DNA of 64,000 nucleotides from an uncultured Bacteroidota bacterium (GTDB lineage: Bacteria; Bacteroidota; Bacteroidia; Flavobacteriales; Flavobacteriaceae): the NCBI GenBank assembly GCA_913062555.1, contig CAJXVU010000010.1, forward strand, positions 1-64,000, read 5' to 3'. Numbering within the stretch: position 1 is the stretch's first letter; each line of letters opens with the position of its first letter. The notes beneath the pieces are model-generated. The model was not told the origin of the DNA and did not search any database. It saw only the letters and a list, made by a program, of their open reading frames with translations. The translations under genes and the position numbers were made by a program. Positions 12,260-58,932 of this stretch are shown piece by piece.

Positions 12260-12500
12260 TTATTATTTTATTTTCTTCTGATTTAGGAAGAGGTATAAGT
12301 CACTACACGAAAATATATTCGGATTCAATCCTTTACAAAATACATTAGAACAAAATTCGCCAATGAAAAGTTTGAAGGGATGTCTCTAGAAATTGATGCA
12401 ATTACTAAATTCTTTGAAAAGGAATAAAAAGATAACTAATGCTTACAAAACCGCTACACAGTATAACCAAATCCCTAGCCACAAGCTAAACATTATTCAA

Positions 12501-13067
12501 ATGAACGAAATCAGAAAGTTTATTGAAAACATCACTCCAATGAATGATTCTGATTGGAAATTCTTTTCTTCAAAATTGCAAGAAGTAAAGTATCAGAAAC
12601 ATGCCATTCTATTGAAAAGTGGTGAGGTAGAGGACCATTTATATTTTATAAAAAAAGGAATGGTTAGACTTTATATCCCGAGGGAAGAATCCGACTTAAC
12701 TTTTGGTTTTCTATTCGAAAATGAATTCGTGACAGCTTATGATTCATTTTTAACACAAATGCCTTCCGAATACCAAATTGAAACCTTATTAGAAACCACT
12801 GTATTGAAAATTTCTCATAAAAATTTGCAAGAAGTTTATGAAAGAACAAATAGCGGAAATATTATCGGACGAAAAATGGCTGAAAACATGTTTTTGATAA
12901 AATCGAAAAGAGAACTTTCCTTATTGAGTAAAACAGCAGAAGAACGATATTTGGACTTATTCTCTGAGAGACCAAAATTATTACAACAAATCCCATTAAA
13001 ATATATTGCCTCTTATATTGGGGTAACTCCTCAAGCCTTGAGCAGAATTAGAAAACGTATTACTTAA
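12501..13067 (+). CDS. Crp/Fnr-family transcriptional regulator
   Basis: The start is taken at 12501 (MNEIRKFIENITPMNDSDW), because Crp-family proteins of this subgroup begin there and the extension back to 12393 looks unlike coding sequence. The 188-residue protein has an N-terminal cyclic-nucleotide-binding-fold domain (QKHAILLKSGEVEDHLYFIKKG at about 33-54) and a C-terminal winged helix (PLKYIASYIGVTPQALSRIRKR). The Arg and Ser typical of cAMP binding are absent, so another effector or none is likely. The DoxX gene starts 63 bp downstream in the same direction. This is a recurrent pairing in which the regulator probably controls its neighbour. Confidence 0.85.
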   Translation: MNEIRKFIENITPMNDSDWKFFSSKLQEVKYQKHAILLKSGEVEDHLYFIKKGMVRLYIPREESDLTFGFLFENEFVTAYDSFLTQMPSEYQIETLLETTVLKISHKNLQEVYERTNSGNIIGRKMAENMFLIKSKRELSLLSKTAEERYLDLFSERPKLLQQIPLKYIASYIGVTPQALSRIRKRIT

Positions 13068-15861: not shown

Positions 15862-16200
15862 ATGAAAACAGCATCTCTATTAAAAGAACTTATTTATAAT
15901 GATACCAAAGTCTCTATTAAAGTATTGATGGAAACAGAATCCTCAAAGGAAATCAGAATTTTGTTCAAAAAAGGACAACTAATGAAAGAGCATAAAGCAG
16001 GTTTTCCAATTACAGTTGCAATTCATCAAGGAATTATCGCTTTTGGAGTTAATGGGGAGAAAATGATTTTAAAAACAGGGGATTTAATTAGCTTAGATGC
16101 AAATGTTCCTCACGATTTATTAGCTGAGGCAGATAGTATTGTAAGACTAACTTTATCAAAATTTGACAAGATTGAAAGAGTGAAAAAGGTAATTGCATAG
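15862..16200 (+). CDS. Small cupin-domain protein
   Basis: This 112-residue protein is a single cupin barrel. Strands run through IRILFKKGQLMKEHKAGFPITVAIHQGIIAFGV, with EHKAG in place of the usual HxH of motif 1. GDLISLDANVPHDLLAEADS forms motif 2 with its His. The reduced metal set (one His in each motif) makes metal binding uncertain. It is cytosolic with no signal peptide. The function is unknown; small cupins of this kind are often general stress or sensory proteins. A boundary-like motif lies 75 bp upstream. Confidence 0.75.
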   Translation: MKTASLLKELIYNDTKVSIKVLMETESSKEIRILFKKGQLMKEHKAGFPITVAIHQGIIAFGVNGEKMILKTGDLISLDANVPHDLLAEADSIVRLTLSKFDKIERVKKVIA

Positions 16201-41310: not shown

Positions 41311-41745
41311 ATGAAAAAAGTAATTTTAAGTTTAGGTATAATCGCAGCTTTTGCATTCACTAGTTGCAAAAGCGAAACAAAAACGGATAGCCGAATAGCC
41401 GTAAATACAGCAATAGTATTAAATTCAGAAACAGTAGATATTACCTTTGGCGTTCGTGGGAATTGTGGTATGTGTAAAACGACCATTGAAAAAGCAGCTC
41501 TCAGCGTTGAAGGCGTTGGAAGTGCAGATTGGGACAGAGATAATAAAAGTATAAATGTATCTTTTACCGATTCTAAAACAAACGCAAATGCAATCCACGA
41601 AGCAATTGCTGCATCAGGATATGATACTGAAAAAGTAGCAGGAAACTTAGGTGCTTACGAAAACTTACCAGGATGTTGCAAATATGATCATGAAATGGAA
41701 ATGAATCAATCGGGTAACTCTAAAGACGATAAACATGGACACTAA
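41311..41745 (+). CDS. HMA-domain lipoprotein, periplasmic metal chaperone
   Basis: This 144-residue protein has lipobox FTSC (Cys19). Its heavy-metal-associated domain has the soft-metal site Cys52-Gly-Met-Cys55 (RGNCGMCKTTIEK) followed by the usual GVGSADWDRDNKSINVSF and AIHEAIAASGYDTE elements of the ferredoxin-like fold. The tail adds LPGCCKYDHEMEMNQ and a final His-rich KDDKHGH, further candidate ligands. It probably hands Cu(I) to CusB or CusA in the periplasm. Its end overlaps the next gene by 11 bp. Confidence 0.92.
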   Translation: MKKVILSLGIIAAFAFTSCKSETKTDSRIAVNTAIVLNSETVDITFGVRGNCGMCKTTIEKAALSVEGVGSADWDRDNKSINVSFTDSKTNANAIHEAIAASGYDTEKVAGNLGAYENLPGCCKYDHEMEMNQSGNSKDDKHGH

Positions 41746-43099
41746 AATCATCAAAAGTTTCGCGATATTTATGATCACTACACTCTTTATTACCGCCTGT
41801 AAAGATGGAGGAACAAAGGGTGAAATTGAAGGAGTAGTCTCTACATTTGGCGATCAACCATCAATAGTTCAAGGCGCAAATAATGAAATTGTTGTCGTTT
41901 TTGGAGAAGAAGAATCAATATATTTTTCAGAATCTAATAATGGTGGTGAATCTTTTAGTGAACCAGAACTTGTTGGGAATCTTGAGGGTTTAGTACTTGG
42001 CTTTTCTAGTGGCCCTGGTGTAGCAATTACAAAAAACAATATTGTTGTTACAGCTCCAAGTAGGACTGGCAATATATTTGCATGGACGAAACCAATTGAT
42101 GGTAACTCTTGGGATGGACCATTTCAGATAAATGATGTAGAAGCCTCAGTTAAAGAATGTCTTATGGCAATTACTTCAACACCGAGTGGACGTTTGTTTT
42201 CTACATGGATTGATACACGTGTAGTGAAAAAAAGCATGGCTGAAGACCATAATGAAACTAAAAAGAAACCTGAAGCTCAACACAAAGAGCAAAAAGAGGA
42301 ACTGGATTTAAATCAAATGACACCATTAGGCATTAGCTATAAACAATTGTTTGAAAAGATTGGTGATGTCCCAAAAGATGCTAAACTGGCTTTTCATGGC
42401 GATAGTGATGACAATATACTATGGGTGTTTTTAGACGCCAATGGCAATGCTGTCAAGGCTGAGAATCTTGAAGAGTTTAAAAAATTTCGTGAGAAAAATA
42501 AAAATCATGCCAAAATAGAAGGAAAAATTTATGTCTCTTATTCTGATGATGATGGTAAAACTTGGTCACAAAGTAAACTCGTATATAAATCTCCAGATGG
42601 CTCAGTATGCGAATGCTGTAAGCCTTCCATCACTAGTGATACTAAAGGTGAAGTTTATATCATGTTTAGAAACAATGTTGCTGGATCAAGAGATTTACAC
42701 GTTACAAAATCTGTAGATAACGGTGCTTCATTCTCAGAACCTGAAAAAATGGGAACTGGAACTTGGAAAATTAATGGTTGCCCGATGGATGGTGGCGGAA
42801 TAATAATTGATGACAATGGAGTATTCAATACGGTTTGGCAAAGAGATGGAGAAGTTTTTATGGCCAATTCAAATACCAATGAACAGCAGCTCGGCTTTGG
42901 AAGGTCACCTTCTATTTCTTCTAATGCCAATAAAACAAATATCGTCTTTACAATGGGAGAAGATATTATGACCACCGATTCAAAGCTAGCATTACCAGAA
43001 AAAATAGGAACAGGAAGTTTCCCTAAAGTTATATCAACTGAAAATGGCGCCATCTATTTCTGGGTTGGTGAAGCAGGCATTCAATATAAAAGAATTTAA
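41735..43099 (+). CDS. Cys-containing BNR/sialidase-like propeller lipoprotein of the copper operon
   Basis: This 454-residue protein has lipobox FITAC (Cys22). Asp-box (BNR) repeats such as SESNNGGESFSEPELVG, SYSDDDGKTWSQ and TKSVDNGASFSEPEKMG predict a six-bladed beta-propeller like exo-sialidases. An inserted helical/charged segment (about 165-260, rich in Lys/Glu) interrupts blade spacing. Two Cys clusters, CECC (292-295) and NGCPMDGG (Cys349), lie at blade positions facing one side and could bind copper. The sialidase Arg triad is not evident. It is the last gene of the operon, coupled by an 11-bp overlap to the HMA gene. I recall uncharacterised relatives near copper genes in Bacteroidota. 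Confidence 0.72.
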   Translation: MDTKIIKSFAIFMITTLFITACKDGGTKGEIEGVVSTFGDQPSIVQGANNEIVVVFGEEESIYFSESNNGGESFSEPELVGNLEGLVLGFSSGPGVAITKNNIVVTAPSRTGNIFAWTKPIDGNSWDGPFQINDVEASVKECLMAITSTPSGRLFSTWIDTRVVKKSMAEDHNETKKKPEAQHKEQKEELDLNQMTPLGISYKQLFEKIGDVPKDAKLAFHGDSDDNILWVFLDANGNAVKAENLEEFKKFREKNKNHAKIEGKIYVSYSDDDGKTWSQSKLVYKSPDGSVCECCKPSITSDTKGEVYIMFRNNVAGSRDLHVTKSVDNGASFSEPEKMGTGTWKINGCPMDGGGIIIDDNGVFNTVWQRDGEVFMANSNTNEQQLGFGRSPSISSNANKTNIVFTMGEDIMTTDSKLALPEKIGTGSFPKVISTENGAIYFWVGEAGIQYKRI

Positions 43100-43154
43100 G
43101 ATATTCGATTCATTTCGAATCCGTGTAATCTCCCTGATTACTTTTTTTTGTGAT

Positions 43155-43190
43155 ACCCGAGGTCAATAATTTGATCTTGGGTGTTTTTTT
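43155..43190 (+). terminator. Terminator of the copper-efflux operon
   Basis: ACCCGAGGTCA (43155-43165) pairs with TGATCTTGGGT (43172-43182), including two G-U pairs, and is followed by GTTTTTTT. It lies 56 bp past the operon's last stop. Confidence 0.75.
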
Positions 43191-43269
43191 CTTCTCCCCT
43201 TTCAATAATATCTAAAATAATTGAATAAAAAAAACAACCCTAAACACCAGTATCTTAAAGATTTAAATG

Positions 43270-43306
43270 TATATTTGTTATACAAGACTTTTTTATCCTG
43301 TATAAA
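43270..43306 (+). promoter_or_regulatory. Promoter with abutting palindromic operator, site 1
   Basis: A perfect -7 box TATATTTG (43270-43277) is followed without spacer by TTATACAAGA (43278-43287) and, 8 bp on, TCCTGTATAA (43296-43305). The arms share TTATACA/TGTATAA and GA/TC. The operator would cover the transcription start. The same arrangement occurs at 43747-43783 in front of the multicopper oxidase. Confidence 0.6.
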
Positions 43307-43457
43307 GTCTAGACCTTTTTACATTTAAAACTGTACAATTAACATGGAGATTAGGCCGGTATCAGTTTGAGATTTGAAAACCATATATTAATGGGACTTA
43401 AATCGAAATAATATACTACAAATTTACTTTAGCTTTCAAATTAGCATCGACGGAAAA

Positions 43458-43574
43458 ATGGAAGCTATTCCCTACTTAATTGATACCAAAAGGACTAATC
43501 TCCTTGTTGTTGTAACAGCACTGAATAACAAACGCAAACTCTTAATGGGAAACCAACAATTTTATTATAGCTAA
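43458..43574 (+). CDS. Possible 38-residue ORF in the hidden transcript
   Basis: ATG 43458 to TAA 43572-43574 reads MEAIPYLIDTKRTNLLVVVT and continues ALNNKRKLLMGNQQFYYS. The frame is open further upstream to about 43393 (FQISIDGK just before the Met), so it may be the tail of a lost gene instead of a complete microprotein. It has no recognised family and no good ribosome-binding site. Confidence 0.25.
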   Translation: MEAIPYLIDTKRTNLLVVVTALNNKRKLLMGNQQFYYS

Positions 43575-43620
43575 TTGAGCCCCTTTGTTAACATTATTAC
43601 TAACTAATTAACCTTTGTAA

Positions 43621-43660
43621 GGCTGTCCAAGATTAAAAAGTTAATCTTGGACAGCCTTTT
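43621..43660 (+). terminator. Strong Rho-independent terminator
   Basis: A perfect 15-bp stem (GGCTGTCCAAGATTA at 43621-43635, TAATCTTGGACAGCC at 43642-43656) with a 6-nt loop is followed by TTTTATTTT. No annotated gene ends before it; the efflux operon already has its own terminator 430 bp upstream. Confidence 0.9.
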
Positions 43661-43746
43661 ATTTTGGTTCCTCTTTCCAATCTTGTCGAATGGCTTTAAA
43701 AATTGCTTTTAATCTAAAATTTACTCATTATTAAGCATTTATATCA

Positions 43747-43783
43747 TATATTAGCAATACAAGACAATTTTGTCTTGTATTAA
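43747..43783 (+). promoter_or_regulatory. Promoter with abutting palindromic operator, site 2 (multicopper oxidase)
   Basis: A near-consensus -7 box TATATTAG (43747-43754) is followed by C and then a 12-bp perfect palindrome, AATACAAGACAA (43756-43767) TT TTGTCTTGTATT (43770-43781). Aligned without gaps to site 1 it shares TATATT, G, ATACAAGAC, TTTT, TC, TGTAT and AA. It ends 20 bp before the oxidase ATG. Confidence 0.65.
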
Positions 43784-43802: not shown

Positions 43803-45530
43803 ATGAAATCTTTACGACCTACCTGGATCCTATGCCTGTTTTCAATGGCATTATTCTCTCAAAATCCGATTATCATTCCCGGAACCATTGAAAGTACAAA
43901 CGTGAACTTAACGCTACAAGACGGTACGTTTCAATTTTTTACAGGAATTAACACCACAACTATGGGCATAAATGGTCCATTACTTGGGCCTACCCTAATC
44001 ATGACCAAAGGTGATGACATGAATATTAGTATTACCAATAATTTAGGACAAGAATCTACGATACATTGGCATGGTATGCACGTTTCAGCAGCAAATGATG
44101 GTGGACCACATACAGTGATTGGCGTGGGAGAAACTTGGAATCCTCAATTTACAGTTTTAGATAAAGCAAGTACATATTGGTATCATCCTCATCTCCTTAA
44201 TAGCACCGATGAACAAGCAAGTAAAGGTCTTGCAGGTTTCATCATTGTTAAAGATACTGAAGAAGCTGCTTTAGTTCTCCCAAGAACATATGGAGTAGAT
44301 GATATCCCATTGGCTATTCAAACAAAATCTTTTGATGGTAGTTCTCAAATATTAAGTAATGTCAATAGTGATACCACTTTAATGGTGAATGCCACAATCG
44401 ATGCTCAACTGGATGTACCAGCACAAGTCGTTAGACTTAGATTATTAAATGGATCATCACAGCGAACTTTTAATTTTGGTTTATCTGGTGATATGACTTT
44501 TCATCTTATTGGAACCGATGGCGGACTTGTAGCTGCTCCTGTAGCATTAACACGATTACCACTATCCCCAGGTGCCAGAGCAGAAATATTGATTGATTTT
44601 TCTGGTTTACAAAGTCAAACGATTAACTTAATGAGTTATGCTTCCGAACTCACTAATGGGACTTATGGAGCAACTTACCCAGGGTTAAATCAATCAATGG
44701 TTTTAACAGGATACAATCCCAACACAATGAATGGAGCAGATTTTAATGTCCTTCAAATGGATGTGATTGCGCAAACAGCAAGTCCTATCACAACCATTCC
44801 AACAAGTCTAGTGACTGCCACGCCAATTGCAGAAATAAATTCAGATCAGACCAGATCATTTGAGTTCAGCCCAATTATTTCAGGAATGAATCAATTAAAT
44901 GGGGACTTTTCTATAAATAATGTCACCATCGACATGAATACCATCAACGTTACTATTCCATTAAATAATACTGAGATATGGACATTTCAAAATAATTCAG
45001 CTATAGACCATCCTTTTCATATGCACGATGTACAATATTATATTTTGGACATCAATGGCAATGCTCCACCTTCATATTTACAAGGTAGAAAAGACACTTT
45101 TACTGTTCCAGCAGGTGGAATAGCAAGAGTAATTACAAAATTTGAAGACTATTCTGATGATACCATACCCTATATGTATCATTGTCATATGCTCAAGCAT
45201 GAAGATGCCTTAGCTGGGATGATGGGACAATTTGTAGTTGTAGATCCACTCGCAGGTGTTGATGATTTCGAAATTAGTAATGCGATTCTCTACCCAAATC
45301 CAACACAAGGAGCCTATTTAAGCATTCAATTAAAGAATCAAGCTGAAAATATTCTCGCTTACTCAATAATTAATCAATTAGGTCAAATAATAAGTTACCA
45401 TAAAATTCATGAAAATGAGCTTAATAATACCTACTCCTTTCCAATCTTTAAATTAGCACAAGGACAGTATTTTGTTAAAATATATACTGAGACTCAAATA
45501 ATAACAAAAACATTTACTAAAAATAATTAA
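43803..45530 (+). CDS. Secreted multicopper oxidase with type IX sorting domain
   Basis: The start is set at 43803 (MKSLRPTWILCLFSMALFSQ), which yields a proper signal peptide; the longer frame from 43770 would overlap the operator. The 575-residue mature-type protein has three cupredoxin domains with all copper motifs: TIHWHGMH (His88, His90), WYHPH (His128, His130), DHPFHMHD, and YHCHMLKHEDAGMMG with the T1 Cys, His and Met. The C-terminal 75 residues, from GVDDFEISNAILYPNPTQGA, are a type A T9SS sorting domain, so the enzyme is exported to or beyond the cell surface. It probably oxidises Cu(I), as CueO does, complementing the efflux operon upstream. Confidence 0.93.
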   Translation: MKSLRPTWILCLFSMALFSQNPIIIPGTIESTNVNLTLQDGTFQFFTGINTTTMGINGPLLGPTLIMTKGDDMNISITNNLGQESTIHWHGMHVSAANDGGPHTVIGVGETWNPQFTVLDKASTYWYHPHLLNSTDEQASKGLAGFIIVKDTEEAALVLPRTYGVDDIPLAIQTKSFDGSSQILSNVNSDTTLMVNATIDAQLDVPAQVVRLRLLNGSSQRTFNFGLSGDMTFHLIGTDGGLVAAPVALTRLPLSPGARAEILIDFSGLQSQTINLMSYASELTNGTYGATYPGLNQSMVLTGYNPNTMNGADFNVLQMDVIAQTASPITTIPTSLVTATPIAEINSDQTRSFEFSPIISGMNQLNGDFSINNVTIDMNTINVTIPLNNTEIWTFQNNSAIDHPFHMHDVQYYILDINGNAPPSYLQGRKDTFTVPAGGIARVITKFEDYSDDTIPYMYHCHMLKHEDALAGMMGQFVVVDPLAGVDDFEISNAILYPNPTQGAYLSIQLKNQAENILAYSIINQLGQIISYHKIHENELNNTYSFPIFKLAQGQYFVKIYTETQIITKTFTKNN

Positions 45531-45553
45531 TTCCGTTAATAGCTGTCATTATG

Positions 45554-45613
45554 AGTGTAACAAGACCAATGCATTATTTAAATAAATAATGCATTGGTCT
45601 TGTTACACTTTTT
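45554..45613. terminator. Long bidirectional terminator between oxidase and usp genes
   Basis: AGTGTAACAAGACCAATGCA (start of the left arm, 45554 on) pairs without mismatch with the arm ending at 45609 (GGTCTTGTTACACT). The stem is at least 25 bp with a short AT loop, flanked by A-rich and T-rich sequence on either side. Confidence 0.92.
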
Positions 45614-45631
45614 GTAATGGTGAATATAAAA

Positions 45632-58755: not shown

Positions 58756-58932
58756 TTATCCATTTCCTCCACCTGGTGGTGGTGGTGGTGGTGGTGGTGG
58801 TGGTGGAATATCATCTCCATCATCACAACAGGCTTGTTGGCTGCTCTCATCCACAGCTAATTCCTGTGGTGTACACGAATAAAACCCCAAATTGAGGATA
58901 ACCGTAAAGATTATTACATAAATTTTTTTCAT
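58756..58932 (-). CDS. 58-residue polyproline lipoprotein preceding the TPR kinase
   Basis: The minus-strand ATG (58932-58930) to TAA (58758-58756) encodes MKKIYVIIFTVILNLGFYSC, that is a lipoprotein signal with lipobox Cys20, then TPQELAVDESSQQACCDDGDD, 11 consecutive Pro and GGGNG. All 11 Pro codons are CCA, an uninterrupted trinucleotide repeat (58774-58806). The mature peptide of about 39 residues would be acidic, with a Cys-Cys pair and a rigid polyproline tail. It ends 40 bp before the kinase ATG and is likely cotranscribed with it. The function is unknown; a periplasmic sensor accessory or signal peptide is possible. Confidence 0.65.
   Translation of the reverse strand: MKKIYVIIFTVILNLGFYSCTPQELAVDESSQQACCDDGDDIPPPPPPPPPPPGGGNG

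Follow-up and report, generated by a model that had tools for sequence, protein, structure and literature searches.

The closest described system is the regulon of the NO-sensing repressor NsrR, in which an Rrf2-family repressor gene goes together with palindromic operators, of consensus gATGyAT-N5-ATrCATc, that overlap the promoters of dnrN/RIC, nirK, nor and, in some taxa, nos (PMC1274295). Rrf2 genes have also been reported in the clade II nos clusters of marine Bacteroidetes, where the neighbourhood was described and the role of the protein was called hard to predict (PMC6264515), and we found no operator in the literature for the Rrf2 proteins of the clade II nos (N2O reductase) clusters of Flavobacteriaceae. 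A nitric oxide-regulated small RNA, RoxS/RsaE, is conserved across Bacillus and Staphylococcus and is activated by ResDE/SrrAB (PMC4409812). The system proposed here likewise combines an Rrf2-family repressor gene with palindromic operators that overlap promoters, but it differs from the NsrR regulon in the sequence of the operator, ATAnAAGAY-N6-RTCTTnTAT, which does not match the NsrR consensus, in predicted targets that include nrdG/nrdD, a cupin gene and a CueO-like oxidase gene, and in a candidate regulator that scores below the NsrR cut-off. As in the marine clusters, an Rrf2 gene adjoins a Sec-type nosZ cluster in the host genome; the published account is of the neighbourhood only, whereas an operator and a wider set of targets are proposed here.

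The window, the 64,000-nucleotide stretch of DNA that was analysed, lies on contig C10 of a 3.8-Mb Flavobacteriaceae genome (the host genome). The interval of interest is preceded by genes for a CusB-like adaptor, an HMA protein and a BNR-like protein, the operon of the BNR-like gene ending in an intrinsic terminator (43152–43185, plus strand; 15-pair stem with a T-tail), and is followed by the gene of a multicopper oxidase (43803–45530, plus strand). The oxidase matches the Pfam domains Cu-oxidase, Cu-oxidase_2, Cu-oxidase_3 and Por_Secre_tail, the last a C-terminal T9SS sorting domain. It resembles CueO in domain order, and CueO entries are its nearest solved structures, but it differs in carrying the sorting domain, in a score of 338.9 bits against the NCBIfam CueO equivalog model, below the cut-off of 525, and in a nitrogen-oxide-type operator at its promoter. 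In L049, the locus of a related species in which a BNR-like gene likewise precedes the oxidase gene, the spacer between the two is shorter than in the window by about 490 bp. The BNR-repeat lipoprotein-like gene of the window (41735–43099), which encodes a CxCC motif and receives no name from NCBIfam, is present in only 5 of 397 family genomes (E 1e-40) and in some of these adjoins HMA and oxidase genes. A long near-perfect inverted repeat at 45548–45614, after the oxidase gene, is probably the oxidase terminator.

Two matching sites lie in and at the end of this spacer, site 1 at 43270–43303 (TATATTTGTTATACAAGACTTTTTTATCCTGTAT) and site 2 at 43747–43780 (TATATTAGCAATACAAGACAATTTTGTCTTGTAT). 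The reading that we consider reasonably probable, from sequence comparison, is that both are promoters with a predicted operator of an NsrR-like repressor of the Rrf2 family, for which the Rrf2 protein encoded on contig C5 is the best candidate in the host, and that site 1 is a duplicate arisen in this lineage that drives a folded transcript. The assignment of an operator and regulon to Rrf2, and the membership of the oxidase in that regulon, are proposed as new.

The sites are 477 bp apart and align without gaps at 73% identity over 51 nt, as the first-pass annotation had described. In a genome-wide pattern search, a 34-nt pattern allowing up to 3 mismatches found only these two sites in 3.8 Mb, and a control found none. 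At site 1 the −7 box TATATTTG (43270–43277, plus strand) fits TAnnTTTG exactly and the operator ATACAAGACTTTTTTATCCTGTAT occupies 43280–43303; at site 2 the −7 box TATATTAG (43747–43754, plus strand) is followed by the operator ATACAAGACAATTTTGTCTTGTAT (43757–43780). The G of the −7 box lies 15 nt upstream of the operator centre at site 1, at the host oxidase promoter and in five relatives, and 14 nt from it in L049. The site 2 palindrome is a near-perfect 20-bp inverted repeat and scores 22.6 with a position weight matrix trained with oxidase sites excluded. In site 1 the right half-site is imperfect, with TCC for TCT, and there are two mismatches to the regulon pattern; its score of 14.4 is weak on its own, the best scores in shuffled 64-kb sequences being about 15. 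Sites 1 and 2 are the only hits of the regulon matrix in the window. The common operator and the common spacing to the −7 box support the first-pass suggestion that one regulator acts on both.

Conservation of site 2 was examined in 80 loci of oxidase relatives (649 kb). At the six loci with the closest oxidases of the lineage (L015–L018, L020 and L049) the block TAwATTnGcAATAnAAGAynAwwTwrTCTnnTAT stands directly before the start codon. Over all 80 loci a matrix built from non-oxidase sites gave scores of at least 12 only at those six closest oxidase promoters, and without oxidase training sites the scores were 12–25 at all seven related oxidase promoters, the host's included. On these sequence grounds site 2 is a promoter-operator that seven species have kept at their oxidase genes, in keeping with the earlier proposal that it drives the oxidase gene. 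An upstream element, TTTTAATCTA(A) at 43709–43718 (plus strand), is invariant at the oxidase promoters of the seven species and is absent at site 1. The TTTAATCTAA element found upstream of these promoters has a very similar counterpart near unrelated genes in L013 and L014, and may be a general flavobacterial promoter element.

Across 299 family genomes the palindrome was found at 43 distinct places. The total number of matches in the family is not much above that of a reversed-pattern control, and the case for a regulon therefore rests on gene contexts. These were read by eye, and 26 of the 43 places lie at nrdG (whose product activates the class III ribonucleotide reductase), RIC (Fe-S repair), nirK, norC/qNor-like, nos, Rrf2 or multicopper oxidase genes; about a dozen are within genes or at unrelated genes, and the others are ambiguous (cupin, HMA, cytochrome). 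NCBIfam models named representative operator-linked proteins as NrdG, NrdD, RIC (several over the cut-off), Cu nitrite reductase and Sec-type NosZ, and gave no name for norC and qNor, which were assigned by eye. In agreement with a regulon of NO detoxification, NO-damage repair and denitrification like that of NsrR, the operator is borne by RIC, nirK, norC/qNor-like, nos and Rrf2 genes. The host genome has an operator at C5:53426, between the nos operon (cytochrome c, fasciclin-like and NosZ genes, with NosL/D/F/Y recognized by eye) and a divergent Rrf2 gene, and a further one ahead of nrdG/nrdD on contig C25. A small cupin gene bears the operator in two genomes (L164 and L167); its homologue in the window (15862–16200) does not.

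The motif also recurs upstream of Rrf2 genes themselves. Of about 31 Rrf2 upstream regions sampled by way of Pfam from 12 genomes, 8 score at least 12, at a fixed distance to the start codon, against a shuffle rate of 0.27 per 64 kb. The simplest reading of the motif at these genes would be an autoregulated Rrf2 repressor acting like NsrR. In the same 12 genomes the motif was not found upstream of the IscR-like group of Rrf2 paralogues. Other paralogue groups (L205, L221, L223 and L228) have variant palindromes resembling AGGAT..RTCCT, placed equally far from the start codon, which suggests that Rrf2 paralogues have paralogue-specific operators.

The C5 protein belongs to the Rrf2 family, with 90 bits to PF02082 and 94.7 bits, over the cut-off, to TIGR00738. 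Against the NsrR model NF008240 (NCBIfam) it reaches 42.3 bits, the cut-off being 182; the IscR and RirA models outscore the NsrR model on this protein, yet it is below their cut-offs as well. Because the score is far below the NsrR cut-off and the operator is unlike the published consensus, we have not filed the protein as NsrR. It contains three cysteines in the arrangement C-x6-C-x5-C (SCVLSLEKCDLDKPC), which are predicted to be able to hold an Fe-S cluster. This trait is also shared by IscR-type proteins.

Given this distribution of the operator, control of the two sites probably lies with an NsrR-like repressor of nitrogen-oxide and anaerobic genes and not with a copper regulator. The first-pass annotation had proposed instead that a copper-responsive repressor or activator governs the oxidase together with an undescribed copper RNA or microprotein. 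The locus does hold copper-handling proteins (the CusB-like adaptor, the HMA protein and the CueO-like oxidase), but elsewhere in the family the operator stands at genes of denitrification, N2O reduction, NO-damage repair and anaerobic ribonucleotide reduction and at Rrf2 genes, several of which (nrdG, RIC, Rrf2) are not copper genes, and the matrix run over all 64 kb finds no operator at the copper-efflux genes upstream in the window. The copper reading of the two sites is not supported by these sequence contexts, and we regard it as improbable. More improbable again is that the palindrome works at the RNA level, as a 5'-leader stem-loop affecting mRNA stability or translation, and not as a DNA operator. 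The palindrome of the oxidase promoter begins 2 nt past the −7 box and would be mostly transcribed, but at nos, some nirK, RIC and Rrf2 genes it precedes the −7 box and would stay outside the transcript.

A regulator of the Crp/Fnr type, responding to anoxia or NO, is the stronger competitor, although still an unlikely one; on that model anoxia or NO would repress the oxidase and site 1, where the operator lies over the start site, and would activate nos and nirK. The content of the regulon (nos, nir, nor, nrdDG) would also fit Fnr-like factors, and in this phylum group NnrR-like genes lie close to some nos clusters (PMC6264515). The position of the operator bears on both models: across the loci it varies between just past the −7 box and 34 nt ahead of it, and in one class of operators (nos, cupin, some nirK, RIC and Rrf2 sites) the centre lies about 30–34 nt upstream of the −7 box, near a position that an activator could also use. 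This range suits a repressor covering the promoter, which the many operators overlapping the −7 box or start would fit, and the upstream class also leaves room for a dual-acting Crp/Fnr-type factor. Against a Crp/Fnr regulator, a homologue of the Crp protein of the window was found within about 2.5 kb at none of 41 operator loci (40 fetched loci and the host nos locus), whereas an Rrf2 gene lies within that distance at 9; the Crp/Fnr gene of the window itself (12393–13067) was rejected as the regulator, having no homologue beside any operator locus checked. The motif also looks autoregulatory at Rrf2 genes, and its half-site is unlike the Fnr-like TTGAC..GTCAA and Crp-like TGTGA..TCACA consensuses (PMC1274295).

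In the Rrf2 model, a dimer of the protein would bind ATAnAAGAY-N6-RTCTTnTAT over the transcription start and block initiation. Nitric oxide, or loss of the Fe-S cluster, would release the dimer, and its release would free the nos operon, nrdG/nrdD, the multicopper oxidase gene and site 1 from repression at the same time. Under NO or anoxia the oxidase should respond in one direction on the Rrf2-repressor model and in the opposite direction on the Crp/Fnr model. Together with the consistent set of genes at which it recurs (nos, nirK, nor, RIC, nrdDG, Rrf2 and multicopper oxidase), the palindrome amounts to a testable regulon that bears on N2O consumption, and the proposed assignment would tie a secreted multicopper oxidase to the genes of that process.

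Site 1 itself looks like a copy of the 5' end of the oxidase gene that is specific to this lineage and has decayed. By blastn the copied stretch (43255–43360, plus strand) matches, at 66% over 109 nt, the segment 43731–43839, which holds the promoter, leader and first codons of the oxidase; the homology extends beyond the oxidase ATG to about 43360 and 43839, respectively. The part of this homology that lies beyond the operator has moderate significance (p about 0.004 against shuffled sequences) and is confined to the host's own oxidase, which suggests duplication in this lineage. Site 1 retains 17 of the 17 core positions that are invariant in the seven oxidase promoters (5 of 5 in the −7 box and 12 of 12 in the operator), a conservation that is partly ascertained, site 1 having been chosen for its resemblance; it retains 1 of the 14 invariant upstream positions and has lost the start codon. 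With a promoter matrix of the oxidase type, no other non-oxidase site in the 2.9 Mb of sequence fetched scores as high. An oxidase pseudogene reaching past the first codons was rejected, the interval having no protein similarity to the oxidase.

Site 1 reads into a non-coding stretch of about 340 nt, which is closed by an intrinsic terminator at 43619–43658 (plus strand) with an 18-bp stem, a loop of 4 nt and a T-rich tail. The first-pass annotation had placed a perfect 15-bp terminator at 43621–43660; the pairing is indeed perfect, and the stem length and coordinates are revised. Its remark that site 1 drives nothing annotated is fair, no ORF of at least 40 aa being present between the sites. 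The longest ORF clear of the flanking genes has 38 aa (43458–43574), the others being shorter, and six-frame fragments gave no credible match to any fetched ORF, so that a hidden microprotein was rejected. Within the interval, 43330–43520 (plus strand) forms a long inverted repeat and candidate structured RNA, with a predicted energy of −54.3 kcal/mol and z of −6.7. In a coarse scan of 322 equally long windows, with 24 shuffles per window and z values that are noisy and milder than −6.7, this segment has the two lowest z values, one per strand. Because it is symmetric on the two strands, the fold reflects in the first place an inverted repeat in the DNA, and the fold alone does not prove an RNA.

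Rfam 15 had no match to 43284–43660 at the gathering threshold and only sub-threshold matches at E of at most 10; with nothing credible from either the gathering or the permissive search, a known RNA family was rejected. No homologue was found in 397 family genomes, none of them of the same genus, by blastn or a single-sequence covariance model, and there was no match in the plasmid collection. The interval is single copy in the host genome and shows no target-site duplication by eye, and a mobile repeat or MITE was likewise rejected. A match in IMG/VR to a 19-mer of the stem was put down to chance, its flanks having no similarity. Pairing of a small RNA with the oxidase mRNA was rejected too, the duplex energy being matched by 30–58% of shuffles.

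The favoured account of site 1 is that it was born in the host lineage by duplication of the oxidase 5' end, keeping the promoter and operator and losing the start codon, and that it would drive a strongly folded, non-coding transcript of about 370 nt ended by the 43619–43658 terminator. We judge the chances to be evenly balanced that site 1 is instead a non-functional relic of a tandem duplication of the oxidase 5' end, whose coding part was lost, with the repeat and terminator as unrelated leftovers and any transcript without function. The homology to the oxidase 5' end with loss of the start codon and upstream element speaks for such a relic, as do the lack of any homologue or coding similarity in the interval and an inverted repeat that folds on both strands, like a decayed DNA element; what a relic does not readily account for is a −7 box and operator with every invariant position intact although the flanks have decayed, the exact fit of that −7 box to TAnnTTTG, and an interval closed by a perfect terminator and containing the strongest fold among the sampled windows. 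Judged from the promoter and what follows it, transcription of site 1 is moderately probable, and a function for the resulting RNA is doubtful; a transcribed relic and a functional RNA are equally compatible with the data. Of the undescribed RNA or microprotein unit first proposed for this interval, a short transcript stays plausible on account of the promoter, fold and terminator, and a functional RNA or microprotein is unlikely, no homologue having been found and site 1 looking like a decayed oxidase 5' end. The proposed operator and regulon of Flavobacteriaceae Rrf2 is a plausible result, and a more solid and more useful one than the hidden RNA unit.

An extension of the Rrf2 model, speculative and in our judgement unlikely, is that a structured small RNA derepressed by NO, born by duplication of the oxidase promoter-operator, joined the Rrf2 (NsrR-like) regulon together with a secreted oxidase that may handle NO or protect copper enzymes. 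Such an RNA would be a functional analogue of RoxS/RsaE by virtue of its co-regulation with nitrogen-oxide and redox genes (PMC4409812), but RoxS is spread over two genera and has an activator, whereas no counterpart of the putative site 1 RNA was detected outside the host genome. If transcribed, site 1 would be a small, clean case of promoter duplication creating a new RNA gene. Elsewhere in the window, the coarse scan picked out a second strongly folding segment, at 58901 on the minus strand, with a z of −4.4.
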